A DNA stretch of 64,000 nt from Polaromonas sp. SP1 (lineage in GTDB: Bacteria; Pseudomonadota; Gammaproteobacteria; Burkholderiales; Burkholderiaceae_C): contig NZ_CP031013.1 in NCBI RefSeq assembly GCF_003711205.1, positions 3,948,501-4,012,500 of the forward strand, written 5' to 3'. The notes under the pieces were generated by a model. The model saw only the letters and a program-made list of their open reading frames with translations. It was not told where the DNA came from and did not search any database. Shown here in pieces: positions 23,110-60,930 of this stretch; position 1 is the stretch's first letter; each line of letters starts with the position of its first letter. The translations under genes were made by a program, and so were the position numbers.

Positions 23110-23125
23110 TACTGCAAATGTAGTA
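23110..23125. promoter_or_regulatory. Inverted-repeat site before the TpsB gene
   Basis: TACTGCAAATGTAGTA is an imperfect 7-2-7 dyad, the arrangement known for NarL-type regulators. Its centre is about 120 bp from the TpsB start codon. Its core CAAATG recurs in the sites at 23271 and 36591. Confidence 0.4.
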
Positions 23126-23182
23126 AGGGGCTGGTCCCATCGCGACGATTTCAGCAATGTCGCAGAGACCACCGGGCCTGTA

Positions 23183-23202
23183 TGTCCCTATTTTTGGGGA
23201 CA
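23183..23202. promoter_or_regulatory. TGTCCC-type dyad before response regulator 1
   Basis: TGTCCC and GGGACA flank an eight-base centre. The preceding CCTGTA is shared with the site at 48783. The centre is about 135 bp from the RR1 start and about 195 bp from the TpsB start, so it could serve either divergent gene. Confidence 0.6.
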
Positions 23203-23270
23203 CACCCTGTAACACGGCCATTCGCAGAGTTGTGCCGGAAACAATGGTAGCCAGGCACGCGGGTTTTACC

Positions 23271-23290
23271 TGTAGCACAAATGCGCTACG
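23271..23290. promoter_or_regulatory. TGTAGC-type dyad before response regulator 1
   Basis: TGTAGC and GCTACG flank ACAAATGC. It is nearly the same sequence as the site before TpsA-D (56336). The centre lies 47 bp before the RR1 start codon, closer than the other sites, which would suit repression or autoregulation. Confidence 0.55.
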
Positions 23291-23327
23291 AGGCCCGTCC
23301 CCCAATCCGTTGGACAATATTCCCCAG

Positions 23328-24053
23328 ATGCAAGCGCTCAACCCCCAGACCCAAGAACAGCCGGCGCCCCTGGACGGAACCGGGCCGCGCATCCACGTCG
23401 CCATCGTTGAGGACGACCTCGGCTTTCGCGGTGCGCTGGCCCGCGCCTTGCTGGCCGCGCCCGACATGACGCTGGCCGGCACGGCCGGCACCCAGGCCGA
23501 AGGCCTCGCCCTGCTGCAGGGCCCGCCGGTGGACGTGCTGCTGGTGGACCTGGGCCTGCCCGACGGCTCGGGCATCGAGGTGATACGCGCCGCTGCGCGG
23601 CAGTGGCCCAGCTGCAGCATCATGGTCAGCACCAATTTCGGCGATGAAACGCATGTCATGCGCTCCATCGAAGCGGGCGCCGCCGGCTACCTGCTCAAGG
23701 ACAGCTCCCAGGCCAAGATCGTCGACGAAATCCGCAGCCTGGCCAGCGGCGGCAGCCCCATCAGCCCCATCATCGCGCGCCAGGTGCTGGCGCGTTTCCG
23801 GCAAGACGCCACCGCCGGCGCCGCGCCAGGGACGGAGCCCCCGGGCGATGCGCCGCAGTTGCTGTCGGCGCGCGAAAAGGAAGTCCTCGACTTCATCACC
23901 AAAGGGTTCACCGCGGTGGAGATCGCCAAGCTCATGGGCCTGTCGCATTTCACGGTGCGCACCTTTGTGCGGCGCATCTACAGCAAGCTCAAGGTCACCT
24001 CCAAGGCCGAAGCCATCTACGAGGCCCGCAGCCAGGGACTGCTGGCGCAATAG
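23328..24053 (+). CDS. NarL/LuxR-type response regulator (RR1)
   Basis: A 241-residue regulator. The receiver domain (about 22-140) has the acidic pair EDD near residues 28-30, phosphoacceptor Asp74 in VDVLLVDLGLPDGSG and the switch Lys in GYLLKD. After a linker comes a GerE/LuxR helix-turn-helix (LLSAREKEVLDFITKGFTAVEIAKLM, FTVRTFVRRIYSKL, about 170-240). An open frame extends upstream to 23157, but the domain begins only after the chosen ATG. HK1 follows after 48 bp and is its obvious partner. It is divergent from TpsB and is proposed to bind the dyads found before the TPS genes. Confidence 0.93.
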   Translation: MQALNPQTQEQPAPLDGTGPRIHVAIVEDDLGFRGALARALLAAPDMTLAGTAGTQAEGLALLQGPPVDVLLVDLGLPDGSGIEVIRAAARQWPSCSIMVSTNFGDETHVMRSIEAGAAGYLLKDSSQAKIVDEIRSLASGGSPISPIIARQVLARFRQDATAGAAPGTEPPGDAPQLLSAREKEVLDFITKGFTAVEIAKLMGLSHFTVRTFVRRIYSKLKVTSKAEAIYEARSQGLLAQ

Positions 24054-24101: not shown

Positions 24102-26063
24102 GTGACACCTGCGCAAGAACCTTCATCGAGCCACCCCCAACGCCGCGCCGCCCGCTTGGTTGCGGTCATCGCCGGCGCCCTGCTGGTGACCGTGGCGGCC
24201 CTGGCGGCGCTGGACATACGGCCCGCAGGCGCGGATACGCAGGAAAGCCTGCACATTACCGGGGCGCAGTGGCAGGTGGTCGATGAGCCCGGCTTCAGCA
24301 CTGCGGCGCCCACGCAGGACAGCGCCTCGCTGCCCGCCGCCTGGCAAGCCGCCACGCTGCCCCATGCCTTGCCGGTATCGCTGGTTCGCCAGGCAGCGGC
24401 CTCAACCCCGGGCACCACACGCACCACCTGGTTCAGGATTTCACCGCAGCGCCTGCCTGGCATGCGGGCGCCGCTGGCCTTGTACGGCGCCCGTGTGCGC
24501 ACCGACGGCACCGTGGCGGTCTATGCAGACGGCCAGCTCGTGCACACCGCCCAGCAGCAGGGGCCGCTCTGGAACAGCCCGCGCGTGCCCCTGTGGGTGC
24601 CGCTGGATAAAACCGCCGACGGCAACCCGCCGCGCGAAATCCTGATCCGCCTGGAGCACACGCGCGCCAGCCAGGTGGCACTGTCGTCACTGTGGCTCGG
24701 CGCGGCCGACGCCTTGAGCTGGCGCCACAGCTGGCGGCACTGGCTGCAGCTTGAGCTGCCGTCCATGTTCAGCACGGCCTTCCTCGCCGTGGGCATCTTT
24801 GCGCTTTTTGTGTGGTTCAAGCGGAGGCACCGCACCGATTACCTGCTGTTCTTCGCGTTGGCCGCAACGTCCTTCCTGCGCGGGCTGCACTTTTATGTGG
24901 GCTTCCCGATCGCCAACGACTGGTTTGCCTGGCTGACGGTGAATTCGCTGTTCTGGCTGGTCGTGATGGTGCATTTTTCCATCGTCCTGCTGCACCAGCG
25001 CCGGCAGCCCTGGGTCACCGGCTCGCTGGTCGCCGTCACGGTGTTGATGGGCCTTCTGACCTTGCCGGCCAGCGCCCCGCTGCCCAACACACCCCAGGTC
25101 ACGCCGCTGATCTACGGGGTGGTGGCGCTCATGGGTGTGACTGTTTCGCTGGCCGGCGCCATCAGCGCCTGGCGCAGCGCTTCCGGCGAAGCCATGCTGG
25201 TGGCCATGGGCACGGCCCTGTGCACCGTGTTTGGTGCAGGCGACTGGCTGCAGCAAAGCAACTTCACCAGCCCCGAAGGCTGGTACCTGGGCGCATGGAC
25301 CAACGCGATCAGCTTCAGCATCTTCGGCGCACTGCTGTACCGGCGTTATGTCGGCGCGATTGTCGAAGTCGAACAGCTCAACGCCAGCCTGGCCGAACGG
25401 CTCAGGGCACGTGAGGTCGAGCTTGAAATGAGCCACCAGCGGCTGCGCGCCGTCGAGCAGCGGCAGATGCTGAGCGACGAGCGCCAGCGCATGATGCAGG
25501 ACATGCACGACGGGCTCGGTTCGTCACTGATCAGCGCGATCCGCTCCGTGGAGCACGGCGGCATGAGCGATGCCAAGGTCTCGCAAATCCTCAAGGACTG
25601 CATGGACGACCTGAAGCTGGCCATCGATTCGATGGAGCCGGTGGAGGCCGACCTGCTGTTGCTGCTGGCCACACTGCGCTTCAGGCTGGAGCCCCGGCTG
25701 GAGGGCTCTGGCGTCACCCTGTTCTGGGAAGTGCAGGAACTGCCCACGCTGCAATGGCTGGACCCGTCAAGCGCGCTGCACATCCTGCGCATCGTGCAGG
25801 AAAGCGTGGCCAACATCCTGCGCCACACGCGGGCCACAGAGATCCGCGTCGCCACCGCCACCGCAGACGGCGGCGTGCAGGTCACCATCGAAGACAACGG
25901 CCAGGGTTTTGATGTGCAAGCCGCGCTGGCCGAAGCCAGCGGCAAGGGCCTGCATAACCAGCAGCGTCGCGCGCAGACGCTGAACGGCAAAGTGGCGTGG
26001 AAGTCGGGGCCGGGTGGTACGCGGTTTACGCTGTGGATGCCGCTGGCGCGTACGCTGGCGTAA
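24102..26063 (+). CDS. 7TMR-DISM / HisKA_3 sensor kinase (HK1)
   Basis: A 653-residue membrane kinase starting at a GTG. It has an N-terminal hydrophobic signal segment (LVAVIAGALLVTVAALAAL), a periplasmic jelly-roll-like sensor domain (about 45-215, with TVAVYADGQLVHTA), a multi-helix membrane domain (about 220-415), a coiled coil (EQLNASLAERLRAREVELEMSHQRL) and a NarX/DesK-type HisKA_3 module with phosphoacceptor His469 in MQDMHDGLGSSL. The HATPase has NILRHTRATEIRV, EDNGQGFD and GKGLHNQQRRAQ. It phosphorylates NarL-type regulators, most likely RR1, encoded just upstream. HK2 and HK3 are paralogues, and HK1 is the most divergent of the three. Confidence 0.93.
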   Translation: MTPAQEPSSSHPQRRAARLVAVIAGALLVTVAALAALDIRPAGADTQESLHITGAQWQVVDEPGFSTAAPTQDSASLPAAWQAATLPHALPVSLVRQAAASTPGTTRTTWFRISPQRLPGMRAPLALYGARVRTDGTVAVYADGQLVHTAQQQGPLWNSPRVPLWVPLDKTADGNPPREILIRLEHTRASQVALSSLWLGAADALSWRHSWRHWLQLELPSMFSTAFLAVGIFALFVWFKRRHRTDYLLFFALAATSFLRGLHFYVGFPIANDWFAWLTVNSLFWLVVMVHFSIVLLHQRRQPWVTGSLVAVTVLMGLLTLPASAPLPNTPQVTPLIYGVVALMGVTVSLAGAISAWRSASGEAMLVAMGTALCTVFGAGDWLQQSNFTSPEGWYLGAWTNAISFSIFGALLYRRYVGAIVEVEQLNASLAERLRAREVELEMSHQRLRAVEQRQMLSDERQRMMQDMHDGLGSSLISAIRSVEHGGMSDAKVSQILKDCMDDLKLAIDSMEPVEADLLLLLATLRFRLEPRLEGSGVTLFWEVQELPTLQWLDPSSALHILRIVQESVANILRHTRATEIRVATATADGGVQVTIEDNGQGFDVQAALAEASGKGLHNQQRRAQTLNGKVAWKSGPGGTRFTLWMPLARTLA

Positions 26064-26353: not shown

Positions 26354-29300
26354 CTATTCTTCACCGGTGTTGCCGGCTTCGGCGGCTGCAGCCCGCAGCG
26401 CGTCGCTGGGATCTGCACCACCGCCTGAACCACCACCGCCGCCGCCGCCCGAGTTCGCCACGTTGTACAGCGCGCTGAGGTAAGCATCGCTCACTGGCGC
26501 GCCGCTGCCCTGCCCCGCCGGCGCCACCGGAACCGGGTTGATGGTCAACACACCGTCGACGTAATTAAGCGCGTAGTTGCCCGCGGTGTATCCGCCGGCC
26601 GTGATGGCGTAGTTGCCTGCGGCGGTCGCGCCTTGTGCGCTGCCGCCGTAGGCCAGGGCGCCACCCAGTACGGCCGCCGTTTCGCCGTTCACAAAGCCGC
26701 TGAAGCTCACGCCGTTGCCGCCGGTGTAGGCCGCACCGCCGGCAGTCCGGCTGTCGTTGTTGGCGGTGATGCTCAGGTTGGCTTTGTCGATATTGGCCGT
26801 GGTGGTGACGGGCGCTGCTGCCAGCTGGTAGTTGCTGGCCAGGCCCGTGCCGTCGGCCACGCTGTAGCTGGCGGTCACGGTCTTGCCGTTGGCGGCGCTC
26901 GCGTCAGAGAAGCTGGCGCCGGTGGCGCTCAAGGCCAGCAACTCGCCGTAGGCCAGGCCCGTCAGCGTGCCGATATTGCCCAGGGTCGCCGTGGCGTTGC
27001 CGTCGTAAGTCTTGTTGTTCGCGGCCACGCCCGTCACGCTCACCGTGGCTTTGTCTACCGTCAGCGTGCCGTTGGTGTAGGAGACGCCGTAACCCAGCGC
27101 CGCCGCCAGCGCGCCCTGCGTGATGGCGTGCGTGCCGGCCGACGCGGCAGCGCCTGTCGGCGCGGCCAGCAGGCCGGACAGCACGGTGCCTGCCGTATCG
27201 CCCGCCACGAGGCCCGAGCCCACGGTGTAGGTCAGCGTAGGGTCGGCCGCGCCATACACCTTGGTCTGGTTGTCGCCGGTGATGTTGATCACCGGTGTGA
27301 CGCTGTAGACCATGCGGTTGCCGGTGATCGAGGTCATCGATGCATCGGTGGGCGCATTGGCGGCGTAGGTGCGGCTGAAGGCATTGCCGGTGGAGGCAAA
27401 GCCGCCGAAGGTATTGGCCGTCGGGTCGGTTGAATACACCAGGAAGCGGCCCGCACCGGGGTTCAGCGGCGTGGCGCCGGCGTTGTTGATGAAGTTGCGC
27501 CCGGCGGCCAGCACCAGCGAATCGCTGGCGGCGCTGCCCGAGGTCACGGTGTTGTTCAGCGTGATGTCGCCTGCGGCGCCCGTGGCGCGCACCAGCACCT
27601 TGCCGCTGGCGGTGAGGCCTGCAGTGTTGACGGTGCCAATGGTGAGCGCGCCGGCCTGCGAGTACTCGGCATTGCCGGTGTTGCCTGCCAGCGTTGTCAC
27701 GGCATTGCCTGCGTTGTTGAGCGTGTGCGTGCCGGTACCCAGCAACTCCAGGCCAGTGGCGGTGATGGCCGCTGTTTGTGTGCTGGTGCCGGCAGTGTTC
27801 AGCGTGAGTTCACTAGCCATCAGCGCGCCGTTGATGGCGATGTTGCCGGCGGTCGTGCTCAGTTTGAGCTTGTCCTGCGTATTGCCGAAGGCGCTGCCCA
27901 CCGTGATGCCGGCGGCTGATGACAGGCTGACCGTCTGCGCCGCCCCGGCATTGGTGGTGATGCTGAAATTGCCGGTGTTGATGGCATTGGCAGCGGCGAT
28001 GCTGATGTCGCCGGTGGCACCTGTCGTGGTCAGTGTTTGCAGGCCGGACACGTTGGTGCCCAGCGTGATGCCGTTGGCGGCGGTCGCGTTGAGCGTGGCA
28101 GCGGTGATGTTGTTGGCCGCACCATTGGCGTCAAGGATGGCGCCGGCCGCGGCACCAAGGGTGACCGCGCTGCCGGCCACCGTCTTGACCGACAGGTTGC
28201 CGGCCGCGGCCGTGACGCTGACCGCACCCGGGGCGCTGATGTTTTCGACGCTGGCGCCGCCGGCCAGGGCCAGATTGACTTGCGAGGCGCCGCCACTTGC
28301 CACCGCGGTGACCGAGCCCGACGTGGAGAGGGTCACCGCATCGCCAGGGGTGGTGCCTATGTTGCCGTTGCCTGCCTCCAGGTAGACCGAACCTCCGGCA
28401 GCGTTGGTGATTTTCGAACCTGCGACGGTGCTGATTCCGCCCGTGGCCACCACGCTGACGGCTGCCGTGGCCGCGGCACCGCCGCCGGAGGCATTCGCGC
28501 TGCTGAAGTCGGCCGTGGCGCCCAGCGTGATGGCGCCGGTATTGCCGATGTCGATACGCCCGCTACCGGCACCATTGTTTGCGATGCTGCCGATGAAGGT
28601 GGCATCAACGCTATTGCGAATGACGATGTCGCCTGATGTGCCATTGTTGAAGTTGGCGAAAGTCTGGATCTGGTTGCCTGCATGGTCCAGCGTCATGCCC
28701 CCGAAGGTGGCGGCCTGGAAGACATTCGCGACGATGGCCTGGGTTTGCGACAGCGCGCCACCGGTGGTGGTGAGCACGACGGCGCCGGCGCCATGGATGC
28801 CGGCCGTTCCGTCCACCGTCCCCACGGACAGTGCGGAGTTGGAGCGGAGCGAGAAATTGCCCCCGTAGGCACGCCCGCTGACCTGGCTGAACTGGTTGTT
28901 TGGGTTGGACAGGGTGACGGTCCGCGCCTCGGCGTTGAGGTTGGCGACCTTGAATCCCGCGGTTTGCAGGATGTTGCCAATGGAGGCGCTGTTGAGCAGG
29001 CTCAAGCTTTGCGTGCTGGTCATATTGACCGCACCGCCGGTGTTGCCGATCTCAATGCCACCGTTAGCGGCGCTGCTGCCCAGGCGCAAGACCGAGGCCG
29101 TGATGTTGTTGAGCTCGCTGTTCGACAGGTTGAGCCCGACTTGCTCACTGTTGCTCAAGCCGCCGGCCAGGGTGATCTTCCAGTTGTCGTCGTTGGCCGT
29201 GATCGCCGTCACGCCGGCGCCGGAGTTGACGGTGCCGTCAATTTGCATCCGGTTGCCGGTCAGGTTGACCTGGCCGCCGGCCGTGCTGACCGCTGTGCCG

Positions 29301-32300
29301 GTGATGAGGCTGAGGTCATAAGAAGAAGGCAAAGAGCCCGCCAGGTTGGCAACGCCGGAGCCTTTGAGCGTGACGGTGGCCGCGCCCGTTGCAGCCAGGC
29401 TGCCGCCGCCCAGCAAGAGCGCTGTCGCCCCGGTGGCGGCGGGGGCGGCCACCGTCCCTGTGGCCGTCACATTGCCGGCCGACGTGGCACTGCCGTTGAG
29501 CGAAGCACCGGCCAGGCTGGTGGAAGCGTACGACGAGTTCACCGTGCCCGTGATGTCCAGGCCGCCTGACCCGGCGATGATTTGGGATGAAGCACCGGTC
29601 AACAAGCCGGTGCCGGCGCTGCCGGCGGGCGCGCCGCCCGTGGTGGCGGTGCCGGTGAGCGTGACCTTGCCGGCCGCGCCGGTTTCCACACGGCCGTCCA
29701 CCGACAGGCCGGTGCCGCCGTAATGCTGGGCGTTGTTCATGGTGCCCGAGAGCGCCACGTTGCCGCCCGTGCTGAACACGGTGGCGCCATTGGCGAGCTC
29801 TCCGCCCATGCTGGCGGGGCCGGTATACGGGTCGGGCGTCATGATCTGGTCGCCGGTGACGGTGCCCGTCAGCGTGACGCTGCCGGCGCCCGTGATGGTG
29901 GATCCCGTGCCCACACGGAAGCCGCGCTCCACCTGGCCGCCCCTGCCCGTCCCGCCGGCGCTGCCCGTGATGGTGATGGCACCTGTGCCGCCGGTGATGT
30001 TGGAATTGGTGATGGCCACGCCGGCGGCCGAACCGCCCGTGGCACTGGCGCCGCCGCTGGTCAGGCTGCCGCTGAGGCTGATGGTGCCTGCGCCGGTGGT
30101 GCTGACGGTCGATTGCGTGGCGCCGTTGTTCACGATCTCCAGCGAATGCGCGTCGCTGGCACCTGCCGCGCTCAGCGTGAGACTGCCTCCCGCCGCGCTG
30201 ACCTTGCTGCCCAGCACCTGGATGGCGCCGTTGGACGCCGTCAGGCTGACATCGGCGCCGGCTGCCTGGTTCTGGATGCCGTCACCCATGCCCAGGTTGG
30301 TGACCACCACCTTGCCCGTGCCGGTGTGCGCCAGCAAAAGATGGCCGGTACTGGTATTGATGGCGCTCAGGCGCGCCGCATCGACCGACGCCGCGCCGCC
30401 AAGGTCGTTGCCTATGCCCGATGCGGCGGAGAGTTTCACATCGCCCGCGCGCAGCGTGGCGCCGTTTTGCACCGTGATGGCGCCGCCCGCCGTGACGCTC
30501 AGGCTGGTCAGCGCAGTGGTGCCGCCCACCGCGCCGGCGAAGGTGGTGTTGCCGAAGCTGTTGGTGCTCAGCGTGTTCGCGCCGTTGACCGTGCTTTCAA
30601 ATCTGATGGTGCCGCCGGTGCTGACCAGGTTGGCGGGGCCGATGACGTTCACCGCGCTGTTGAAGGTCTGCGCCCCTCCCGTCTGCAGCGTGCCGCCCAG
30701 CCTGTTGATGCCGCCGCCCGCCGTCAGCGAGAGGCCGCCGCTGAAGTTTTGCAGGCCCACCAGGTCTATGGCTCCGACATCCCTGATCAGCGTGAGCGTT
30801 CCCATATAGCTGGGCGCCGTGGGAAAAGCGAAACCTGTGCCGTAACGGAAGGCCATGTCTTTCACGTTGCCGCTGCCATTGACCGTGACGCCGCCGAGAA
30901 AGGTGTTGGCCGACGTGCCCATCAAGACGTCTTTATTGAAGCCGTTGATCGTGAAGGTGGAGGCGCCCGTTACGTTCAACGTGTCGGACTGCGAGATCGA
31001 GCCCGAGCTGGAGATGGCTGTCAGACTGCCGCCCACGGTGGACGCGCCAAGCTTCAGGTCGTCGACGTCCCGGATGGTCACGGCGTTGTTGCCCGTATTG
31101 CTGAGCGCGACCGCGCCGGTGAAGTTGTTGCCGGTGTTGCTCAGGTTGATGGCGCTGGCGCCGCCGTTGATGGTGACCGCACCCGCGCCGGCCGCCTGCG
31201 TGATCGCACCGGTCTGGGTGATGTTGTTGCCGGTGATATTGAGCGTGCCGCTGCCCAGCGACAACGTGCCCAGGGTCAGGGGGTTGCCAACGGCGTTAAG
31301 GGTGACGTTGTTCAAACCGAGATTGGTGACGCTGACCGCGCCGGTGAAGTTGTTGCCGCCGCCGCCCAGATTCACGACGCCCGCGCCCGCATTGACGCTG
31401 GTGGCACCGCCCACCGTCAATGCGCCGCCCGTTTGCTGGATGCCCATATTGGAGGAGAGTGTCAGGTTGCCGGTCGCTGTGAGGTCTGAGTTGATGCTCA
31501 TGCCGTTTGTCGCGGTCAGGCTGAGGTTGTTGGCATTCAAGGCACCGCCAAGCGAGAGCGCGCTGCCCGACAAAGTCAGGTTTCCGGCGCCGGTGTTCAC
31601 CGCACCATTGAGCATCAGCACACCGCTGCCGGCCCCCAGGCTGACGTTCTGGTTGACGCCCACCAGGTTCAGGGAATTGATGTTGAAGAGGCCGCCGTTC
31701 GAGGAGGAGACATTCACGTCCCTGGCGGCTGTGATGAAGGCATTGCTGACCGCCCTGTCGCTCGTGAAGTCGATCTGGCCGCCGCCGCCCGTTCCCAGGG
31801 CGGTCAGGTTGAGCGTGCCGATGGCGTTGCTGCTGCTGTTCAGGCGCATGCTGCCGTTGCCTGTGTTGCCCGAGGAAGCGGTGAAGCTGCCACCGGGCGA
31901 GGTCATGACGGCGATCAGGGCGGAGCCGGGGTCGCTTCCCCGGATGTTCGTGCCCGCAAACAGGTCGAAGGAGCCGGCGTTCCAGGTAATGCCGCTGTTC
32001 GTGACCAACTCACCGGCGGTCGCTTTCATCTTCAAACTGCCTGCGTGGATTTGCCCCAGGCCGTCGATGCTGCCGATACTGCCGCCGGCGGTCAGGTCCA
32101 TCGCGCCGCCGTTCAGGTTCAGGGTTCCCCCGCCGGTAATGTCGCCGCCGGCGTTGGCCGTCATCGCCAGAGCGCCCGAAGTGCTGGTGATATTGCCGGT
32201 GAACACCATGTTGCGCCCGGCGTTGAGCGTCAAACCTGCCGCGCCCCCGCCGTTTTTACCCATGCTCGCGTTGACGTTGATGTCGCGCTCGGCGGTCAGC

Positions 32301-33795: not shown

Positions 33796-33815
33796 TGTAG
33801 CCACTATTGGCTACA
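33796..33815. promoter_or_regulatory. TGTAGC-type dyad before TpsA-A
   Basis: TGTAGCCA and TGGCTACA flank CTAT, a perfect eight-base-arm inverted repeat. The centre is 180 bp from the TpsA-A start. It shares TGTAGC-N8-GCTACA with 56336. The remaining 33626-33885 gap contains no gene. Confidence 0.6.
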
Positions 33816-51121: not shown

Positions 51122-54100
51122 CTACTCCCCGCCAGCCAGCGCTGCATTCTCTGCAGCGGCATCGTTCAACGCTTTGATCAGCGCGGCGTCACTCGACACA
51201 GTCGATTCACCGTCGATATCGCTGCCCAGATCCTTGTCGGCGCTGGTAACGGTGTTGATCGCGGTCACATACGGCCCATCCAGCACCCCCGTCACGCCGA
51301 AAAGAGATGCAGGCAATGGCGGCGTACCGGTCATCGTCAGTGTGCCGTTGGTGTAGACAACGTTGTAACCCAGGGCCGATGCCAGCGTGCCCTGCGTGAT
51401 GGCGTGTGTCGGGCCCGTCGTGGCAGCGCCTGTGGGCGCCGACAGCGCGCCGCCCAGCGCGCTGGCCGCGGTGTCGCCCGCCACCAGGCCGCTGTTGACG
51501 GTGTAGGTCAGAGCCGGGTCGGCGCCGCCGTAGGCCTTGCTCACGTTATCGCCGCGCACATTGAGCGTCGGCACAACGCTGTAGACAAAGCGGTTGCCAG
51601 TCAGCGAGGTCATCGAGGCATCGGTGGGCGCATTGGCGGCGAAGGTGCGGCCAAACGCATTGCCGGTGGAGACCAGGCCGCCCAGGGTGTTTGCCGTCGG
51701 ATCGGTTGCGTAGACGAGGAAGCGGCCTGCGCCCGGATTGAGCGCACCCGCGCCCGCGTTGTTCACAAAGTTGCGCCCGGCGGCCAGCACCAGCGCATCG
51801 TTGGCGGCACTGCCGGAGGCCACGCTGTTGTTCAAGGTGAGGTCGCTGGCCGCGCCCGTTGTGCGTATCAGAACTTTGCCGGTGGCGGTCAGGCCTGCGG
51901 TGTTGACGGTGCCGACAGCCAGCGCGCCAGCCTGCGTGTAGCTGGCATCGCCGGTATTGCCCGCCAGCGTTGTCACCGCATTGCCCGCGTGGTCGAGCGT
52001 GTGCGAGCCGGTGCCCAACAGCTCCAGGCCGGTGGCGGTGATCGCCGCTGTCTGGGTACTGGTGCCAGCGGTGTTCAGCGTGAGTTCACTGGCCGTCAGC
52101 GCGCCATTGATGGCGATGTTGCCGGCGGTGGTGGTCAGCTTCAACTTGTCTTGCGCATTGCCGAAGGCGGCGTCTACCGTGATGCCGGCGCCGGACAACA
52201 GGCTGACCGTCTGTGCGGACCCGGCGTTGGTGGTGATGCCGAAGTTGCTGGTGTTGACGGCATTGGCGGCGGCGATGGTGATGTCGCCCGTCGCACCTGT
52301 GGTCGCCAGGGTTTGCAGGCCGGTCACATTGGTGCCCAGCATGATGCCGTCGCGCGCACTTGCATTGAGCGAGGTGGCGGTGATGTTGTTGGCCGCGCCA
52401 TTGGCGTCGGTAATTGAGCCGGCCGCTGCGCTGAGGGTGACCGAGCTGCCGGCCACCGTTTTGACCGCGAGGTTGCCGGCCGCGGCGGTGACGCTGACAG
52501 CGCCCGGTGCGCTGATGTTTTCGAGGGTGGCGCCATTGTTCAGTGAGAGATTGACTTGCGAGGCACCGCCATTCGCCACCGCGGTAACCGAGGTCGCGTC
52601 CCAGATATTCACCGGGGCAGCGGTGCTGGCGCCTATGCTGCCATTGCCCGCCTCCAGGTAAACCGAGCCACCCGAGGAGGTCCAGATGTTGGGCGAGATT
52701 GTTTGCGCACTGATGCCGCCCGTGGCCACCACGCTGAAGCCTGCGGTGCCCGCCGTCGTACCCGAGGCGGTGCTCGACGTGGCAAGGGCGCTGCCACCTA
52801 AAAAGATATTCCCCGTGTTGGCGATATCGACGCGACCCTGGCTGAAGATGAAGTTCAGGAAGCTGGCGGTGGCAGCGGTGTTGCGAAGGGTGAGGTTGCC
52901 TGATGTACTGTTGGTGAGGTTGCCGAAATTCTGAACCCGGTTACCTGCGTGGGTGAGCGTCATGCCCCCGAAGCTGGTGACCTGCAAGGTGTCCGCGACG
53001 ATGGCCTGGGTTTGCGACACGGCGCCGCTGCTGTGCAGCATCACCCTGCCGGTGCCGGAGTGGGTGATGCCGGCCGTTCCGTCAACCGTTCCCACCGACA
53101 GCGCAGAGGCCGAGCGGACCTGGAAATTGTTCGTTCCGTAGCCGCGGCCGCTGAGCTGGATGATCTGGTTGGCCGTGTTGCTCAAGGCGACGCTTCCTGC
53201 ATCGACGTTCAGATTGGCAGCTGTGAGTCCCGCCGTCTGCGTGATCGTGCCCGAGGTGCTGTCGTTAAGCAGGCTCAGAATGGGTGCGCTGGCCAGGTTG
53301 ATCGCGCCGCCGGTGTCGCCGATGGATATGCCGCCCGTATTCAACGTGCTGCCGATCTCGATCACCGACGCGGTGATCCGGTTGAGCTCGGCGTTGCTCA
53401 GGTTCATGGCGGTGGTTTCTGATGCGCCGCCAAGTGTGATCGACCGGCTGTTGTTGAGGAAGTCCGCGCTGACCACCACCTTGCCCGCGCCCGCGTTGAC
53501 GGCAGAGCCGATGTTGATGCGGTCGCCCATCAGCGTGATCGCACCGCCTCCGCTGGTGATGCTGGTGCCGTCGATGTTCAGGGCGTAGCTGCCGGCCGGC
53601 GCAATGGCAGCCGCTGGAAAATTCATTCCGCGCAGCGTCATGGCCGCCGTGTTGGAGTTAATGCTGCCGCCGGTCAGGCTCACGGCATGACCGCCGCCCA
53701 TGGAGCTTACCCCACCGAGGCTTCCGATCATGGTGACCGGGCCGGTCGAGTTGATACTGCCGCCAACCATGGAGATGCCGTTAATGGTCGGCGTCCCCCC
53801 GCCCGAAACACTGAAAATCCCCGTACTGCTAAAACCCTGCCTCCCTGCGATGATGTCTGCGCCGGCATCGATAAGGACGCCGGAGCCGCTGATCCCGGCA
53901 GCACCCAAGTTTGAGGAACCGTCGAGTGTGATGCCGCGCAAGGTGCCGGACTGCACTTTGCCTCTTGCCATCAGGCCATAGCTCTCTGTGACGACGCCGT
54001 TAGCGGAAGTCCCCCGGCCGGTAACCGTCACATTGCCGCCGGTGCTGGACACCTCCGAGCCGGTGCCGAGCTCGGCGCCCGCGCTGCCAGTCAGGATACC

Positions 54101-56203
54101 AAACACCACACGTCCGGTGATGTCGATGTTGCCGGCACCCGTAATCTTGGCCAAGGAATCCAGCCGTACCCCGCGGGACACCTGACCGGCGAGTATGGGC
54201 AGACTTACATCACCGTTCACCGTGACAGCGCCGCTGCCGCCCGTCACGTTCGAATCGCTGATGACCACGCCGCCCGCGGAGCCGCCGGTGGCGCTGCCGC
54301 CACCGCTCTTCAGGTTGCCGGTGATGTTGATCGTGCCGCCGCCGGTGACGCGGACGTTGGTTTGCGTGGCGCCGGAATTGACGAGCTCAACCGCGTGATG
54401 GCTCGAATTGGCATTGGACGCATCGATGCTGATGTTGCCGCTGCTGGTCAGGCTGCTGCCCATCAGCTTGATGGCTGAACTGGCGCTGTTGATGTTGGCA
54501 TTGCCGCTGGTGAGGGTGGCACGGTCCAGCAGCACGCCATACTGCGCCATGTCAGCCGTGATGCCATTGATGGTGAGGGCGCCGGTGCCGGCGTTCACCG
54601 TGCCCTGGGACACCAGAACACCCGAACTCCCCGTCTGGCCCGCCCCGGTCAATGAAATGGCGCCTCCGCTGCTTTGAACAATCGCATTGCTGATATCCAG
54701 CGCGCCGGCGGAGTTGACGGTGATCGTGCCTGCGCCGCTGGTCACGGCCAGCCCGGAGCTCTTGATGGCCTGGGTGGCCGAAGCCGTACTCAGCACAAGC
54801 GCGCCGCCGCCGGAGGTCTTGAATGTCAGGGCAGCTCCATCGCCGCTGCCCGTGAGGTCAATACCGGTGCCGGTGGGCCCGGTGGTCTTGATCGTGAGGC
54901 TCAGGCCAGTGGGCATGTCCACATCGGCATTGGTGAAGTTGCCCGTGACGTTGATCGAGTCCGTGGCCTCGATGGTCATGTCGGCGCCGACCGATTCAAG
55001 AAAGTCCTCGTAAATGGTGTTGGCCGCTCCACCATTACCGGCCGCAATGGTCATCGTGGCCGGGTCCAGCAGCCAGTTGCCGTTCTTGCCTTGCGGCGCC
55101 CGCGTGTTGACCCTGAAGCCTGGCAGTATCTTGAAGCTCGCGGCGCTGGTTTCGATAAAACCGCCGTCGCCGCCATCGGGGGCAGAGGCGTCCAGCGTGC
55201 CGCCGATATTGACCATGCCGTGTTCCATGTCGCCGATCAGCATGATGCGCCCGGCCTTGTTGGCAATCGTCTTTGCTTCAATCACGCCGGTGTTGTTGAC
55301 GGTCGCAGTTGTCAGGCTGTCGAGTGCCTTGGCACCGAGCAGCACCTGGCCGCCATCGGCCTGGATGAGTTGCTTGTTCTCGGCCAGCGCATTGATGGCG
55401 CCCTGGTCGATGCTGTAGCCCAGCAGGCTGCCGTTGTCCAGGTTGAGCGTGACCTTGTTGCCCGCTGCAAGCAAGGCGGTTCCCAGGCTGGCGGTCATCA
55501 CGCCCTCGTTGCGCACCTCGGGCGCCAGCAACGCCAGGTAGCCGCCCTGCCCTGCATTCAGGTTGCCTTGATTGACGACGGAACCGCTGGAGCGGTTGTT
55601 GCTGAACACGTGGTTGCCGGCCATGAAGTCCGCATTGCTCATGGACAGCGTCGAAGCCACCAGCCCGCCGACATTGACCTGCGAACCCGCGCCAAACAAC
55701 ACGCCGTTCGGATTCAGGATGAAGACCTGGCCGTTGGCGATCAAGCTGCCCAGCAACTCGCTGGGGTTGCTGCCGGTAATGCGGTTCAGCGCAATCGCCT
55801 GCGCATTGGGCTGGTTGAAGATCAGCGCTTCCTGCGCCGCTGTGGAAAGCGAAGTCCAGTCAATCGCTGCGCGCTGCGTGGTCTGGTGGATGGTGGTGGT
55901 GTTGCCCACCGTGGAGATCGCGGCAGAGCCGGCTGTCACGCTGGCGTCGGCCGCGTTGGCGGCATGAGCCTGGTTCGTCAGAACCGAGAGGGACGTGAAC
56001 AGCACCAGCGCCGCACGGCAAGCGGCCCTGAGCGTGAAGCCCGAGGCTGCATCGCCCATCGCAGCAGAACCGAACAACACGCTGCTGCGCACCGAGCCGC
56101 CCTTGCCACGCCCCCTGGCGTTTTCAGCGACAGCCACCCAAAGGTTCAGGCTTGCGTTCCACACCAGTCGATAGATGCGATTCATGCTGGCGTGGCTTTT
56201 CAT
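51122..56203 (-). CDS. TpsA exoprotein D: FHA-type adhesin, paralogue of A
   Basis: A 1693-residue exoprotein. ESPR (MNRIYRLVWNASLNLWVAVAENARG) and signal end near AHA (81). The TPS domain includes NPNGVLFGAG, although it has GSNPSELLGSLIANG where A and E have GSSPSELLGSLTANG. The beta-helix shows islands nearly identical to A (for example LTTTAGNIAINGAL and APTDASMTS). A single MBG-type unit (SKAYGGADPALTYTVNSG) lies near the C-terminus, but A's YDG unit and polyglycine tract are missing; the tail is acidic (DKDLGSDIDGESTVSSD). The mature protein appears to have no Cys. It most likely arose by duplication of A or a common parent and shares the TpsB. Confidence 0.92.
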   Translation of the reverse strand: MKSHASMNRIYRLVWNASLNLWVAVAENARGRGKGGSVRSSVLFGSAAMGDAASGFTLRAACRAALVLFTSLSVLTNQAHAANAADASVTAGSAAISTVGNTTTIHQTTQRAAIDWTSLSTAAQEALIFNQPNAQAIALNRITGSNPSELLGSLIANGQVFILNPNGVLFGAGSQVNVGGLVASTLSMSNADFMAGNHVFSNNRSSGSVVNQGNLNAGQGGYLALLAPEVRNEGVMTASLGTALLAAGNKVTLNLDNGSLLGYSIDQGAINALAENKQLIQADGGQVLLGAKALDSLTTATVNNTGVIEAKTIANKAGRIMLIGDMEHGMVNIGGTLDASAPDGGDGGFIETSAASFKILPGFRVNTRAPQGKNGNWLLDPATMTIAAGNGGAANTIYEDFLESVGADMTIEATDSINVTGNFTNADVDMPTGLSLTIKTTGPTGTGIDLTGSGDGAALTFKTSGGGALVLSTASATQAIKSSGLAVTSGAGTITVNSAGALDISNAIVQSSGGAISLTGAGQTGSSGVLVSQGTVNAGTGALTINGITADMAQYGVLLDRATLTSGNANINSASSAIKLMGSSLTSSGNISIDASNANSSHHAVELVNSGATQTNVRVTGGGTINITGNLKSGGGSATGGSAGGVVISDSNVTGGSGAVTVNGDVSLPILAGQVSRGVRLDSLAKITGAGNIDITGRVVFGILTGSAGAELGTGSEVSSTGGNVTVTGRGTSANGVVTESYGLMARGKVQSGTLRGITLDGSSNLGAAGISGSGVLIDAGADIIAGRQGFSSTGIFSVSGGGTPTINGISMVGGSINSTGPVTMIGSLGGVSSMGGGHAVSLTGGSINSNTAAMTLRGMNFPAAAIAPAGSYALNIDGTSITSGGGAITLMGDRINIGSAVNAGAGKVVVSADFLNNSRSITLGGASETTAMNLSNAELNRITASVIEIGSTLNTGGISIGDTGGAINLASAPILSLLNDSTSGTITQTAGLTAANLNVDAGSVALSNTANQIIQLSGRGYGTNNFQVRSASALSVGTVDGTAGITHSGTGRVMLHSSGAVSQTQAIVADTLQVTSFGGMTLTHAGNRVQNFGNLTNSTSGNLTLRNTAATASFLNFIFSQGRVDIANTGNIFLGGSALATSSTASGTTAGTAGFSVVATGGISAQTISPNIWTSSGGSVYLEAGNGSIGASTAAPVNIWDATSVTAVANGGASQVNLSLNNGATLENISAPGAVSVTAAAGNLAVKTVAGSSVTLSAAAGSITDANGAANNITATSLNASARDGIMLGTNVTGLQTLATTGATGDITIAAANAVNTSNFGITTNAGSAQTVSLLSGAGITVDAAFGNAQDKLKLTTTAGNIAINGALTASELTLNTAGTSTQTAAITATGLELLGTGSHTLDHAGNAVTTLAGNTGDASYTQAGALAVGTVNTAGLTATGKVLIRTTGAASDLTLNNSVASGSAANDALVLAAGRNFVNNAGAGALNPGAGRFLVYATDPTANTLGGLVSTGNAFGRTFAANAPTDASMTSLTGNRFVYSVVPTLNVRGDNVSKAYGGADPALTYTVNSGLVAGDTAASALGGALSAPTGAATTGPTHAITQGTLASALGYNVVYTNGTLTMTGTPPLPASLFGVTGVLDGPYVTAINTVTSADKDLGSDIDGESTVSSDAALIKALNDAAAENAALAGGE

Positions 56204-56335
56204 GGGCGGCTTTCGTAGGCGATAAAGGCAAAGGCGACCGGTTGATCCGCCAGGCTGTCAAGCCGGTGCACCGCACCCCGGAGCGGATCATCCGGATTGA
56301 CGGCCGTCATCGTACGAATGACAGGGCCGGCTGTC

Positions 56336-56355
56336 TGTAGCACGTATGCGCTACA
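56336..56355. promoter_or_regulatory. TGTAGC-type dyad before TpsA-D
   Basis: TGTAGC and GCTACA flank ACGTATGC. The centre is 142 bp from the TpsA-D start. Compared with the site at 23271, only three of the 20 positions differ. Confidence 0.65.
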
Positions 56356-56464: not shown

Positions 56465-59400
56465 CTAGCATTCATCGGCGTCAAAGCCCACCGGCATGCG
56501 CACACCGCAGCCCTCGACGCGTGTCGCAGTGCCTTCTGGTCTATCGCCCACGCTGCGTTGTTGCCGCGGGTTCAAAAGGTTTTCACCCTGCTCGGCCTGC
56601 ATGCCTTGCAACACGGCGCTGTACTGCGCCATCAGTTCACCGCCCGAAGTGCTTGTGGCGACGGGCAGCGGTGTCCCGCCCACCCACACGCCGTTGACCC
56701 GCAGCGTGACCACGCCTGTTCCGGCGTTGATGGCCGAGCCCGCGCCGAAGTTGATGCCGGCCGCGCCGGCCTGGCGGTCGGCTGGTAACGCGCCGGCATC
56801 CCCGGCGGATGCGGTGAAGGCGCCGTTGGCCGTATTGATCACGCTGTTGAGGTTGATGTTGCGCCCGGCTTGCAAGTTCAGTGCGCCGCCTGCGGTGCCT
56901 GCCACGTTGATGTTCGAGTTCACCGTGATGTCGTTGCTGGCCTGCAGCGTGACCGCCGTGCCGCCGGCCAGTGTGGCGCTGAGGGCGGAGGGGTTGAAGC
57001 TCATGGTCTGGCCTGTGCCGTTGGCATAGCTGATGCCGCGCGGTGTGCCCATCAGCACCTGGCCGTTGTTGCCGCCGGCATTCGGGCTGGCCACCAGGTA
57101 GTTGCCGTTGCCCAGCGGCGTCACGGCGCTGATGTCCAGTCCCGTGCTGCTGTCCACCGCCTTGAAGCCCACGCGGTCATTGGCCGCGGTTCCCACCAGA
57201 CTGTTGAGGCTGTTGACCGCGCCGCTGACGCCGCCCGCGCCGCTGCCCCAGGTCACGGCCCCGGCATCGGTCAGGGCGCCGTTGTCCCAGCGTGAGCTGC
57301 TCACCACATAGTCGCCGGTGGCCAGCGCCGTGACGCCGGTGGCGCCCACCTTGTCGTTGGTCTGGCTGCCCACCAGGCTGTTGGCGGCGCCGACAACGCC
57401 GGTCGTGCCGGTGCTGCCGTTGCCCCATGTCACGGCGCCTGCGTCCACCACACCGCCGTTGTCCCACTGCGAGCTGCGCACCACATAGTTGCCGTTGGCC
57501 AGCGCCGTGACACCGTCGGAGCCCAGAAAATCGCTGGCGCTGCTGCCCAGCAAGCTGTTGCCCGCGTTGATGGAGCCGACCAGCCCGGTGCTGCCATTGC
57601 CCCAGGTGATGGCGCCTACATTGACCAGTGCGCCGCTGTCCCACAACGGGCTGCGCACCACGTAGTTGCCATTGGTCAATGCCGTAATGCCGTAGTTGCC
57701 GACGGCATCATTGGCCTGCAGGCCGACAAAGCTGTTGGCGGCGCTGACGGGGCCGACCAGGCCCGTCGCGCCATTGACCCACGTGGCCGCGCCGGCATCG
57801 GCGATTGCGCCGTTATCCCAGACGGGCGAACTCACCACATAGTTGCCATTGCTCAGCACGGTGACTCCGGTGCCGTTGCCGGAGCCCACCTGGTCACTCG
57901 CCTGGGTGCCGTACAGGCTGTTGGCGGTACTGATGTCGCCGGTGATGCCGGTGGCGCCGTTGGCCCAGACCACGGCGCCCGCATTGGAGATGGCGCCGTT
58001 GTCCCAGAGACGGTTGCTCACCACGTAGTTGCCGTTGGGCAGCGCCGTCACGACGCTGCCGATGTAGTCGCCGTCATGGGTGCCGTGCAGGCTGTTGGCC
58101 AGGGTAATGTTGCCGGTAAGGCCGGTGCTGCCGTTGCCCCAGATGGTGGCGCCGACCCTGACGCCGCCGCTGGACCAGTTCGGGGCATTGACCACATAGT
58201 TGCCGTTGCTCAATGCGATCGCGGCCACGGTAAGGTCGTTGTTCGAGGTGCCCACCAGGCTGTTGGCCGCCGAGACCACACCGCTGGTGCCGGTCGCGCC
58301 ATTGCCCCACGTGATGGCGCCGGCATTGAGCAGGCCGCCGGTGTCCCACTGCGTGGAGGACACCACATAGTTGCCGTTGGTCAGCGCGGTGATGGTGCCG
58401 CCCACGTTGTCGTTCAAGGTGCTGCCCACCAGGCTGTTGGCCGCGGTGATGGCGCCGCTGACGCCGGTGGTGCCATTGCCCCAGGTGGCCGAGCCGGCAT
58501 TGACGACGGCGCCGTTGTCCCAGTTGGGGTTGCGCACCACATAGTTGCCGTTGGACAGCGGGGTCACGCCGAACAAGCCCACGTTGTCGCTGGCGGTGCT
58601 GCCCACCAGGCTGTTGGCCGCGCTGACGGCGCCGGCAGTGCCGGTCGCGCCGTTGCCCCAGGTGGCGGCGCCCGCGTCGGCAATGGCGCCGTTGTCCCAT
58701 ATCGAGCTTCGGACCACATAGTTGCCATTGGTCAGCGCGATGACCTCCCGGTTGCCCACGTTGTCATTGGCGGTGGTGCCGTAAAGACTGTTGGCGGTGC
58801 TGACCACACCATTAATGCCCGTCGCCGCGCTGCCCCAGGTCGCCGCGCCGGCGGCAGCCACAGCACCGTTACTCCAGAACTGGCTGCGCACCACATAGTT
58901 TCCGTTGGACAGCGCCGTCGCGCTGGTGCCCACGCGGTCGTTGGCCCGGCTGCCCGTCATGGTCGACACCAGGGCGCCCGTGGTGGTGTCGAACAGGTAG
59001 ACCGCACCTGCATTGGAGGCGGCCAGGCTGTCGGTAGTCACCGTGATCACGGCCTTGCCGTTTTCGGTGAACACGCCGTTGGTGGTGGTGCCCAGCAAGG
59101 TGGTGTTGGCGCCGAACTGGTTGCCGGGCGTGGCGTGCGGATCGACCAGCGCATAGGCGGCCGGGCCGGCGGTGTCGCTGATGATGATGTTGGCCGGATC
59201 CAGCAGCAGCGTGCCGCCCACGCCCGCATCGGCCTGGCCGCCGTAAGTCAGCTGGCCCTTGCCCGAGACTTCAATGCGGCCGGCGCCTGTGGCGCTGGCG
59301 CTGCCGTAGTAGTCGGTCTGCCCGTCGGACCAGACCACGATCTCGCCGTTCGCGCCGTTGGCCTTGAGTGTGGTCGCGCCGTTGACGAAAGTGGTTTGCG

Positions 59401-60760
59401 CATTCATCACGCCGGCGTCGCGGCCCTGGAAGCCGCCGCCTACGCGGATCAACCCGCCGCGTTCGCTGCCCGAGGCGTCCAGCCTGGCCGCCGCCAGCGA
59501 GACGCGGTTGCCCAGCGTGTCAATCGTGCCGCCGCGCTGGCCGGTGGCGCTCAGCGTGCCGGAGCTGAAAAAGCTCTCATCGCCCTGCAGCGAAATCGCG
59601 CCACCTTGCGTGGCGCCGTCGGCCTTCAGGTTGGCCGAAGCCGTCTGCACGATGGCCTGTGTAGCGCGGTAGGCGATGCTGCCGCCCTCGCCCGCCGCGC
59701 CGCTGGCGTTCGCCGTGCCGGCATCCAGGATAGCGCGGCCCTTCAGGTCGATACGGCCACCTTCGGCGCCTGACGCGTCCAGTGTTCCGGCCTGCACGAT
59801 GAAGTCGCCTTCCAGCGCGATCCGGCCCTTGCTGGCGTTCAGCGTTTTGGCCTCGACGATGCCGGCGTTGTTGACGACGCCCGAGCTCAGCGCATCAAAT
59901 GCCCTGGCCGAGAGCAGCACCTGCCCGCCGTTGGCCTGGATGAGTTGCCTGTTCTCGGCCAGCGCGTTGATGGCGCCCTGGTCGATGCTGTAGCCCAGCA
60001 GGCTGCCGTTGTCGATGTTCAGCGTGACCTTGTTGCCGGCGGCGAGGAGTGCCGTGCCCAGGCTGGCCGTCATCACGCCTTCGTTGCGCACTTCAGGCGC
60101 CAGCAGCGCCAGGTAGCCGCCAGGCGCGGCATTGAGCGTGCCCTGGTTGACCACCGAGCCACCCGAGCCGGTGAACACATGGTTGCCGGCCATGAAGTCG
60201 GCATTGCTCATGCTGAGCGTTGAGGCCACCAGGCCGCCGACATTGACCTGCGAGCCCGCGCCAAACAGCACGCCATTCGGGTTGAGGATGAAGACCTGCC
60301 CATTGGCCGTCAGGCTGCCCAGCAGTTCACTCGGGCTGCTGCCGGTGATGCGGTTCAACGCGATGGCCGCAGCATTGGGCTGGTTGAAGATCAGCGCCTC
60401 CTGCGCTGCCGTCGACAAGCTGGTCCAGTCGATGGCCATGCGCTGGCTGGCCTGGTGAATGGTGGTGGTGTTGCCCAGCGTGGAAACACTGCCGGCGCCG
60501 GCGGACACGCTGGCATCGGCCGCATTGGCCGCAAGCGCCTCATGGGCCGGCGCCGCCAGCGCAGCGACCAGCACCAGCGCCGCCCGGCACGCGGTGTTCA
60601 GGCGAAAGCCGCCGGCCTGCAAAGCTGCCGGCGCCAGGCCGCCGGGCACCGGGCTCCCCTTGCCGCGCCCTTTGGCGTTTTCAGCCACCGCCACCCAGAG
60701 GCTGAGTGCGGTGTTCCAGACCAATCGGTAAATGCGGTTCATGCTGGCATGTGATTTCAT
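56465..60760 (-). CDS. TpsA exoprotein E: FHA/HMW-type with propeller-like repeats
   Basis: A 1431-residue exoprotein. ESPR and signal end near ALA (77). The TPS domain is nearly identical at DNA level to that of A. An FHA-like stretch follows (LKGRAILDAGTANASG, NGEIVVWSDGQTDYYG, GRIEVSGKGQLTYGG, GTLLLDPANIIIS). Then come ten repeats of about 59 residues, each with LSNGNYVVRS..WDNGA...AGAATWGNG...G...AANSLVGS...D.VG, perhaps a beta-propeller or similar fold. The C-terminal region ends GCGVRMPVGFDADEC, with two Cys 13 residues apart in a protein otherwise without mature Cys. In Haemophilus HMW1 a C-terminal Cys pair tethers the protein to its transporter, so E may remain cell-bound. Confidence 0.92.
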   Translation of the reverse strand: MKSHASMNRIYRLVWNTALSLWVAVAENAKGRGKGSPVPGGLAPAALQAGGFRLNTACRAALVLVAALAAPAHEALAANAADASVSAGAGSVSTLGNTTTIHQASQRMAIDWTSLSTAAQEALIFNQPNAAAIALNRITGSSPSELLGSLTANGQVFILNPNGVLFGAGSQVNVGGLVASTLSMSNADFMAGNHVFTGSGGSVVNQGTLNAAPGGYLALLAPEVRNEGVMTASLGTALLAAGNKVTLNIDNGSLLGYSIDQGAINALAENRQLIQANGGQVLLSARAFDALSSGVVNNAGIVEAKTLNASKGRIALEGDFIVQAGTLDASGAEGGRIDLKGRAILDAGTANASGAAGEGGSIAYRATQAIVQTASANLKADGATQGGAISLQGDESFFSSGTLSATGQRGGTIDTLGNRVSLAAARLDASGSERGGLIRVGGGFQGRDAGVMNAQTTFVNGATTLKANGANGEIVVWSDGQTDYYGSASATGAGRIEVSGKGQLTYGGQADAGVGGTLLLDPANIIISDTAGPAAYALVDPHATPGNQFGANTTLLGTTTNGVFTENGKAVITVTTDSLAASNAGAVYLFDTTTGALVSTMTGSRANDRVGTSATALSNGNYVVRSQFWSNGAVAAAGAATWGSAATGINGVVSTANSLYGTTANDNVGNREVIALTNGNYVVRSSIWDNGAIADAGAATWGNGATGTAGAVSAANSLVGSTASDNVGLFGVTPLSNGNYVVRNPNWDNGAVVNAGSATWGNGTTGVSGAITAANSLVGSTLNDNVGGTITALTNGNYVVSSTQWDTGGLLNAGAITWGNGATGTSGVVSAANSLVGTSNNDLTVAAIALSNGNYVVNAPNWSSGGVRVGATIWGNGSTGLTGNITLANSLHGTHDGDYIGSVVTALPNGNYVVSNRLWDNGAISNAGAVVWANGATGITGDISTANSLYGTQASDQVGSGNGTGVTVLSNGNYVVSSPVWDNGAIADAGAATWVNGATGLVGPVSAANSFVGLQANDAVGNYGITALTNGNYVVRSPLWDSGALVNVGAITWGNGSTGLVGSINAGNSLLGSSASDFLGSDGVTALANGNYVVRSSQWDNGGVVDAGAVTWGNGSTGTTGVVGAANSLVGSQTNDKVGATGVTALATGDYVVSSSRWDNGALTDAGAVTWGSGAGGVSGAVNSLNSLVGTAANDRVGFKAVDSSTGLDISAVTPLGNGNYLVASPNAGGNNGQVLMGTPRGISYANGTGQTMSFNPSALSATLAGGTAVTLQASNDITVNSNINVAGTAGGALNLQAGRNINLNSVINTANGAFTASAGDAGALPADRQAGAAGINFGAGSAINAGTGVVTLRVNGVWVGGTPLPVATSTSGGELMAQYSAVLQGMQAEQGENLLNPRQQRSVGDRPEGTATRVEGCGVRMPVGFDADEC
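57075..58930 (-). repeat. Ten ~59-codon tandem repeats inside TpsA-E (approximate ends)
   Basis: Ten units centred on NGNYVV and WDNG, about 177 bp each, plus a partial eleventh (LGNGNYLVASPN). Unit lengths vary by a few residues, and the units are more diverged from each other than the YDG repeats of TpsA-C. I half-recognise this unit as a domain-of-unknown-function repeat in databases but cannot confirm its name. Confidence 0.8.
59905..60433 (-). repeat. 529-bp tract nearly identical to 32758-33286
   Basis: This is the partner of the tract in TpsA-A, at a constant offset of 27147 bp. It covers most of the secretion domain, including the NPNG region, while the signal peptide and passenger on either side differ between the two genes. 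Confidence 0.85.
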
Positions 60761-60846
60761 GGAGGGCTTTCAGGGTACGCGTGGCGCACTCCGCACGCGC
60801 GGACTGCAACAAAATCGTTAATGTCGCCATCTGTTGCCGCGCTGTC

Positions 60847-60866
60847 TGTCCCTTGTTCTGGGGACA
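60847..60866. promoter_or_regulatory. TGTCCC-type dyad before TpsA-E
   Basis: TGTCCC and GGGACA flank TTGTTCTG. The centre is 96 bp from the TpsA-E start, the closest of the TpsA sites. Confidence 0.6.
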
Positions 60867-60910
60867 GGGTCCCGTCTTTTGCAGTCGCGCTGCAGTCGTG
60901 CGGGCAGCCG

Positions 60911-60930
60911 TGTCCCCAGATATAGGGACA
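60911..60930. promoter_or_regulatory. TGTCCC-type dyad before response regulator 2
   Basis: TGTCCC and GGGACA flank CAGATATA. The centre is 133 bp from the RR2 start. Together with the site at 60847 it forms a pair within the divergent TpsA-E/RR2 promoter region. Confidence 0.65.

Follow-up and report, generated by a model that had tools for sequence, protein, structure and literature searches.

Two types of 20-bp palindrome as probable operators of paralogous NarL-type two-component systems in a two-partner secretion locus of Polaromonas sp. SP1

NarL/FixJ-type response regulators such as NarL, UvrY/GacA, VraR and DevR have palindromic operators, and the GacA box, TGTAAG-N6-CTTACA, also starts with TGTA. 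In Bordetella, a beta-proteobacterium, an exoprotein of the two-partner secretion (TPS) pathway is under the control of BvgAS, a two-component system whose regulator is of the NarL type; its sensor BvgS is a hybrid of the phosphorelay kind, and BvgA sites consist of heptad repeats. Control of surface structures by a NarL/LuxR-type regulator is also described for PprAB of Pseudomonas aeruginosa, where PprB acts on the adhesin BapA, a large protein, as well as on Flp pili and CupE fimbriae (PMC3510237, PMC6821963). The published site of PprB is GGCTAATAC, and PprB represses its own gene (PMC6821963). Here we explore a stretch of 64,000 nucleotides from Polaromonas sp. SP1 (the window: positions 3948501-4012500 of one 4.5-Mb contig), which carries a TPS locus with two NarL-type response regulators, RR1 and RR2, and inverted repeats (dyads) of the forms TGTCCC-N8-GGGACA and TGTAGC-N8-GCTACA, previously noticed in a preliminary description. 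These dyads are likely operators of the two regulators, with a different dyad type for each.

The locus contains one TpsB transporter, five TpsA-type genes (A-E), two NarL-type response regulators and three related sensor kinases, HK1-HK3 (Table 1). POTRA and a ShlB-type barrel in TpsB together with a TPS domain in TpsA place it in type Vb secretion; Pfam was applied to TpsB and gene B, and genes A, C, D and E were identified from N-terminal similarity alone. RR1 and RR2 both have Response_reg and GerE matches above the Pfam cut-off, hence the receiver plus GerE architecture of NarL/FixJ-type regulators. They are 62% identical overall and 75% across their DNA-binding parts, and their closest relatives are the regulators of Polaromonas sp. 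YR568 (91% for RR1 and 94% for RR2 over 232 columns). The nearest solved structures are VraR, DesR, DevR and NarL. Among the best 25 of 59 and of 76 NCBIfam matches no equivalog reaches its cut-off for RR1 or RR2: the two score 77.2 and 78 bits for UvrY/SirA/GacA (NF007018, cut-off 280), 85.6 and 105.6 for NarL (NF007935, cut-off 250), and 104 and 108 for MadR (NF047785, cut-off 300), which is the best NCBIfam match listed. Unlike BvgS, these are plain kinases, of which two have a 7TMR-DISM_7TM match, and unlike BvgAS there are two paralogous pairs plus an orphan kinase in one cluster. The putative RR1/RR2 dyads differ in sequence from the published site of PprB, the regulator of PprAB, which is the nearest functional parallel found in print. 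No description of 20-bp dyads of these two spellings was found in open-licence PMC texts; other papers may describe them.

All eleven dyads of the preliminary description are present as written, and eight of them hold together as a family. At up to one mismatch the window contains five TGTCCC and three TGTAGC dyads (Table 1), where 100 first-order Markov simulations yield a mean of 0.22 (maximum 2) and 0.02 (maximum 1), respectively. When two mismatches are allowed the window counts are not significant, being reached in 26 (TGTCCC) and 13 (TGTAGC) of 100 shuffles, so that the signal is confined to the stringent form. A matrix derived from relatives and built without the window sites recovers the eight, and no other match exceeds the shuffled maximum of 7.9; the only marginal one among the eight is 33796. 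The dyads at 23110, 33727 and 36591 are undetected by this matrix and were rejected as members. The matrix scan also finds no operator for gene B, either here or in front of its YR568 orthologue, and the idea of a dyad before every TPS gene is thus wrong for B. Recurrent weak operator-like matches at 37829, 38591 and 40730 in the interior of gene C score below the shuffled maximum; they were rejected as sites and are probably coding repeats. With the chosen starts of RR1 and gene C all eight members lie upstream of coding regions, whereas mechanical extension of the open frames makes RR1 begin at 23157 and gene C at 49007, and these longer frames cover three of the dyads.

Table 1. Genes and member dyads of the locus, with window positions (mm, mismatch against the TGTCCC or TGTAGC dyad).
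Feature	Position	Strand	Remarks
TpsB transporter	21303-22996	-	Start is our own reading; Pfam ShlB, POTRA_2
TGTCCC-type dyad, assigned to TpsB (RR2 code)	23183-23202		Candidate -10 GACATT 23156-23161 (minus)
TGTAGC-type dyad (1 mm), two-sided	23271-23290		Candidate -10s: RR1 GACAAT 23313-23318 (plus); TpsB side TACCAT 23244-23249 (minus)
RR1, NarL-type response regulator	23328-24053	+	Start is our own reading (open frame from 23157); Pfam Response_reg, GerE; helix LSHFTVRTFVRR
HK1, sensor kinase after RR1	24102-26063	+	Pfam 7TMR-DISM_7TM
TpsA gene A	26354-33625	-	N-terminus common to B-E
Intermediate dyad TGTAGCCA-N4-TGGCTACA, upstream of gene A	33796-33815		Exact TGTAGC dyad; matrix score 9.5
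TpsA gene B	33886-36480	-	No detected operator; Pfam TPS, ESPR
TpsA gene C	36924-48662	-	Common TpsA N-terminus
TGTCCC-type dyad (1 mm), faces gene C	48783-48802		Candidate -10 TACGAT 48756-48761 (minus)
TGTCCC-type dyad, faces HK2	48983-49002		Candidate -10 CAAAAT 49024-49029 (plus); YR568 HK2 dyad L165:10177
HK2, orphan sensor kinase	49121-51094	+	Pfam HATPase_c; 7TMR-DISM_7TM slightly under cut-off
TpsA gene D	51122-56203	-	Common TpsA N-terminus
TGTAGC-type dyad, faces gene D	56336-56355		Candidate -10 TACGAT 56309-56314 (minus); kept in YR568, L165:17560
TpsA gene E	56465-60760	-	Common TpsA N-terminus
TGTCCC-type dyad, faces gene E	60847-60866		Candidate -10 GACATT 60820-60825 (minus); kept in YR568, L166:2197
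TGTCCC-type dyad, faces RR2	60911-60930		Candidate -10 CACAAT 60952-60957 (plus); kept in YR568, L166:2353
RR2, NarL-type response regulator	61021-61767	+	Pfam Response_reg, GerE; helix VSQHTVQTYVRR
HK3, sensor kinase, overlaps RR2	61733-63685	+	Pfam HATPase_c

Many copies in intergenic regions unrelated to the locus had been named beforehand as a finding that would refute the proposal; for the stringent dyads the outcome favours it. Across the 4,507,493 bases of the genome the stringent dyads are nearly confined to the locus, which holds four of the five exact TGTCCC dyads and both exact TGTAGC dyads. The fifth TGTCCC dyad (C1:1945500) was rejected as a regulon member, its inner positions being off the family pattern (two mismatches); the gene that it precedes matches HTH_17 and, partially, a receiver. 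At up to one mismatch there are six TGTAGC dyads, three of them in the locus, against five in a read-backwards control. The family-wide TGTCCC-type pattern has 11 matches at up to two mismatches and 10 in the control, where all five matches with zero or one mismatch belong to the locus and the remaining six have two. For the family-wide TGTAGC-type pattern the best two matches are in the locus and three others have two mismatches (control: one). The patterns are also rare in whole genomes of relatives, which gave, at up to one mismatch, 34 forward matches in 20 genomes versus four in the control, two of the 20 having none; exact patterns gave 25 matches in 15 genomes versus one, again with two genomes lacking any.

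The assignment of one half-site type to each regulator, suggested in the preliminary description, is best supported by relatives, since there the dyad types split by regulator clade. A scan of a genome collection with an RR1/RR2 alignment matched 175 stretches, of which 116 are relatives, and the best 80 gave 79 loci. Together with the window and including second copies this makes 84 regulators, and the stretch before each gene was searched for dyads, accepting TGTCG on the left arm for the TGTAGC type and C, A or G at the fifth base for the TGTCCC type. The recognition helix xSx(F/Y)TV(R/K), to which RR1 belongs, occurs in 48 regulators: 43 have a TGTAGC-type dyad and five have none. The other 36, RR2 among them, have 23 TGTCCC-type, six hybrid and one TGTAGC-type dyad, with six lacking a dyad. 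In a maximum-likelihood tree 43 TGTAGC-type and five dyad-less regulators make up a clade of 48 rows that includes RR1, and RR2 falls outside it among TGTCCC-type rows. The four dyad labels require 13 changes on this tree versus a shuffled mean of 35.5, a kind of test that near-copies inflate. RR1-clade relatives thus have TGTAGC-type and RR2 relatives TGTCCC-type dyads before their own genes, and as far as sequence comparison goes the putative operator family is real and conserved, with two codes.

Alternatively, both regulators could bind both dyad types, the two spellings being drift within one common regulon. The outer TGT...ACA and the geometry common to both types, the similarity of the DNA-binding parts, the hybrid dyads of relatives and the intermediate site of gene A would all fit. 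We consider it improbable because the dyad types track regulator clades over many genera, and because the single TGTAGC-type exception outside the RR1 clade (L056) is aromatic where that clade is, with Y at the helix position at which most of its neighbours have H; the clade itself has F or Y. The position after TV (R/Q/L) was rejected as specificity residue, given that L067 has R yet shows a TGTCAC/GCGACA dyad. The hybrids of four Pseudomonas-type loci (L059, L060, L063, L072) stand before regulators that face an open reading frame (ORF) resembling a Flp pilin, and possibly represent an evolutionary intermediate of the two codes. At L159 a Flp_Fap match remains under the cut-off.

The promoter layout is equally regular. 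Among 106 distinct sites, which have 212 flanks, the motif nAnnnT is found 21 bp from the dyad edge in 94 flanks and 22 bp in 35, while any other offset from 5 to 53 accounts for 3 to 21 flanks. A -10-like element at 21 or 22 bp is present on at least one side of 99 sites and on both sides of 28, and shuffled flanks (200 runs) give a mean of 17.5 and a maximum of 28 sites with such an element. Upon removal of sites with similar flanks the count is 74 of 81. If the element is a -10, the dyad lies at about -53 to -34, centred near -43.5, which would mean class II activation: an operator over the -35 region at a fixed distance. The regulators might instead repress or negatively autoregulate via the dyads, as reported for PprB on its own gene (PMC6821963), and a dyad beside a -10 could block polymerase. 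This is likewise doubtful, for the fixed 21-22 bp spacing on one or both sides and the location in the -35 region suit class II activation, and repressor sites would need no fixed spacing.

Co-occurrence was evaluated in 81 genomes, comprising that of SP1, 48 of its genus and 32 others of its order, with 13 considered regulator-positive (E up to 1e-60). The exact TGTCCC-type pattern is found in five of the 13 and in none of the 68 others. A dyad precedes the regulator in all seven genomes whose regulator reaches 1e-100 or better and in none of the six at 1e-62 to 1e-70, where the helix reads HTVQTHIK or HTVTT(Y/H)VK in the five legible cases. That a transcription factor other than RR1 and RR2 uses the dyads is therefore very unlikely: sites are absent before the regulator where only more distant ones are present, and a different recognition helix in the neighbouring regulator goes with a different dyad type. 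Still less credible is a role as terminators, RNA hairpins or a dispersed DNA repeat. The dyads are foldable, and in genome G105 a perfect dyad (L173:4015) is situated near a gene's 3' end. As a class, though, they precede genes, have a -10 at a constant spacing and hardly occur outside the locus; on this spacing and the absence of any Rfam match within the window the terminator and dispersed-repeat readings were set aside. The G105 dyad itself has a plus-strand ORF on one side and a minus-strand gene, with its 3' end, on the other, and might be a hairpin of the terminator kind.

Comparison with YR568 shows conservation site for site, save for differing tpsA genes in between, and resolves some individual sites. 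The TGTCCC dyad at 23183 had been listed for RR1. In YR568 a tpsA gene sits between TpsB and RR1, and the TGTCCC dyad stays beside TpsB (L013:4325), scoring on that side only; we therefore assign 23183 to TpsB, which it most probably serves rather than RR1. The dyad at 23271 has the position of the auto-site before RR1-like genes in relatives. TGTAGC dyads had also been proposed before genes A and D and RR1, which holds for D and RR1; the site of A, 33796, is an intermediate form with no close fit to either family-wide pattern. Its YR568 counterpart is a related dyad in the same place (L013:20331) that scores 17.7 and does have a -10.

Several observations weigh against operators with two codes and an activating role. 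No recognisable dyad precedes 11 of the 84 regulators; the TPS-adjacent regulators L052 and L053 lack one in the stretch before the gene. Hybrid dyads, with TGTCCC on the left and GCTACA on the right, occur at six regulators with an H helix, so the code is not strict. In the window 23183 is ambiguous by score, its flanks scoring 4.0 for a -10 on the TpsB side and 3.9 on the RR1 side, and 33796 has no -10 at 21 or 22 bp. A dyad near -43.5 could equally serve a repressor. Finally, the TGTAGC-type pattern is found in three of the 13 regulator-positive and three of the 68 other genomes, a comparison that says little. Two of the latter three genomes have weaker regulators (1e-38 and 1e-45) and their matches are imperfect palindromes, and the imperfect one of G060 is not at its regulator; the third is the perfect dyad of G105, a genome with no such regulator at E 1e-30.

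Taken together we find it likely that the dyads are class II activating operators of two paralogous NarL-type two-component systems, TGTAGC being the code of RR1 and TGTCCC that of RR2. The central proposal of the preliminary description is thereby supported by independent evidence, and its interpretation as a whole partly so, with the corrections given above. From the sites, their confinement, the way in which operator type follows regulator clade in different genera and the -10 at constant spacing, all read from sequence, we infer binding, a need for phosphorylation, activation and not repression, the transcription starts and the action of HK2 on RR2. Phosphorylated RR1 would bind the 20-bp palindrome TGTAGC-N8-GCTACA and phosphorylated RR2 TGTC(C/A)C-N8-G(G/T)GACA. 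A dimer in place of the -35 would then recruit RNA polymerase to a TAnnAT-like -10 located 21-22 bp from the dyad edge. RR2 is predicted to activate its own gene together with HK2, C, E and TpsB. The predicted targets of RR1 are its own gene, D, probably A, and TpsB, the last via the second, two-sided site. With a candidate site of each type at TpsB, the shared single transporter would be made when either branch is active. The kinase core of HK2 is nearer to that of HK3 (70%) than to that of HK1 (65%), as is the H-box region (81% versus 73%), and its promoter has the RR2 code, which makes HK2 a plausible second input to RR2.

Beside the sites of relatives a variety of genes is found (target ORFs were picked mechanically and some may be wrong). 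Pfam matches include TPS/ESPR (L018, L030, L069), TpsB-like ShlB/POTRA_2 (L040, L029, L054), VipA of the type VI secretion system (T6SS; L067, and L174 of Polaromonas JS666, where VipB is next), autotransporter domains (L146, L147), giant Ig-type proteins (L149, L160, L065, L076, L154), RCC1 repeats (L158, L157), fn3 (L084), an outer membrane efflux protein (L074), Kelch (L081) and LRR (L083). Non-surface genes also occur, namely AraC-type regulators (L014, L037), a YcaO peptide cluster (L150) and an APS kinase (L144). About a dozen targets lack an informative match: no Pfam match was obtained with L023, L026, L062, L078, L059, L079, L145, L155, L152, L153 and the first 1000 residues of L156, the match of L017 is weak and those of L148 and L151 are weak or odd. 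Association with exported machinery thus looks like a tendency and not a rule. Nor is regulator adjacency to surface genes general, since a Pfam scan of 36 neighbouring ORFs returned mostly unrelated chromosomal neighbours (for example DNA polymerase II in four, a TPS domain in three).

Some sites deserve separate mention. In Polaromonas JS666 a TGTCGC/GCTACA dyad (L174:3737) is located about 210 bp before VipA and VipB, far from its regulators. In Acidovorax soli a TGTCCC-type dyad (L157:4538) is flanked on one side by an orphan kinase gene of the HK1-3 type and on the other by the gene of a giant RCC1-repeat protein. Trinickia dinghuensis (L044) has two perfect TGTAGC-type dyads, L150:4624 and L150:15750, one near a ThcOx/nitroreductase gene and the other near a nitrile-hydratase-leader peptide and YcaO gene, possibly a regulon for a peptide product. 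Within the window, a repeat containing GGGCTACACGAAGTGAGCCCG is present in two copies where TpsA gene C is separated from B (36790-36915). Inverted repeats of similar form, TGCTAT...TATAGC, lie upstream of gene B (36652-36676) and of HK2 (49068-49090), and may be a dispersed repeat.

On balance we favour, with some reserve, the view that these regulators form an undescribed two-component family of Burkholderiales and some Gammaproteobacteria, which would act as a portable cassette of regulator and promoter. Operator and -10 would keep their geometry while different machines come under the control of the cassette (TPS exoproteins, T6SS, autotransporters, Flp-like pilins, giant Ig or RCC1 proteins), and the residue before TV of the helix, aromatic or His, would set the two codes. 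In Polaromonas sp. SP1 two paralogues would then split one TPS cluster whose transporter answers to both, a natural case of duplicated regulators that divide a regulon and yet share a transporter. The regulator-operator code is testable, with a predicted -10 for nearly all sites and one candidate specificity residue. The composite element of dyad, 21 or 22 bp and -10 offers a search handle for possibly co-activated surface and secretion machines in little-studied environmental bacteria, and could aid in finding the conditions under which giant TPS exoproteins are produced.

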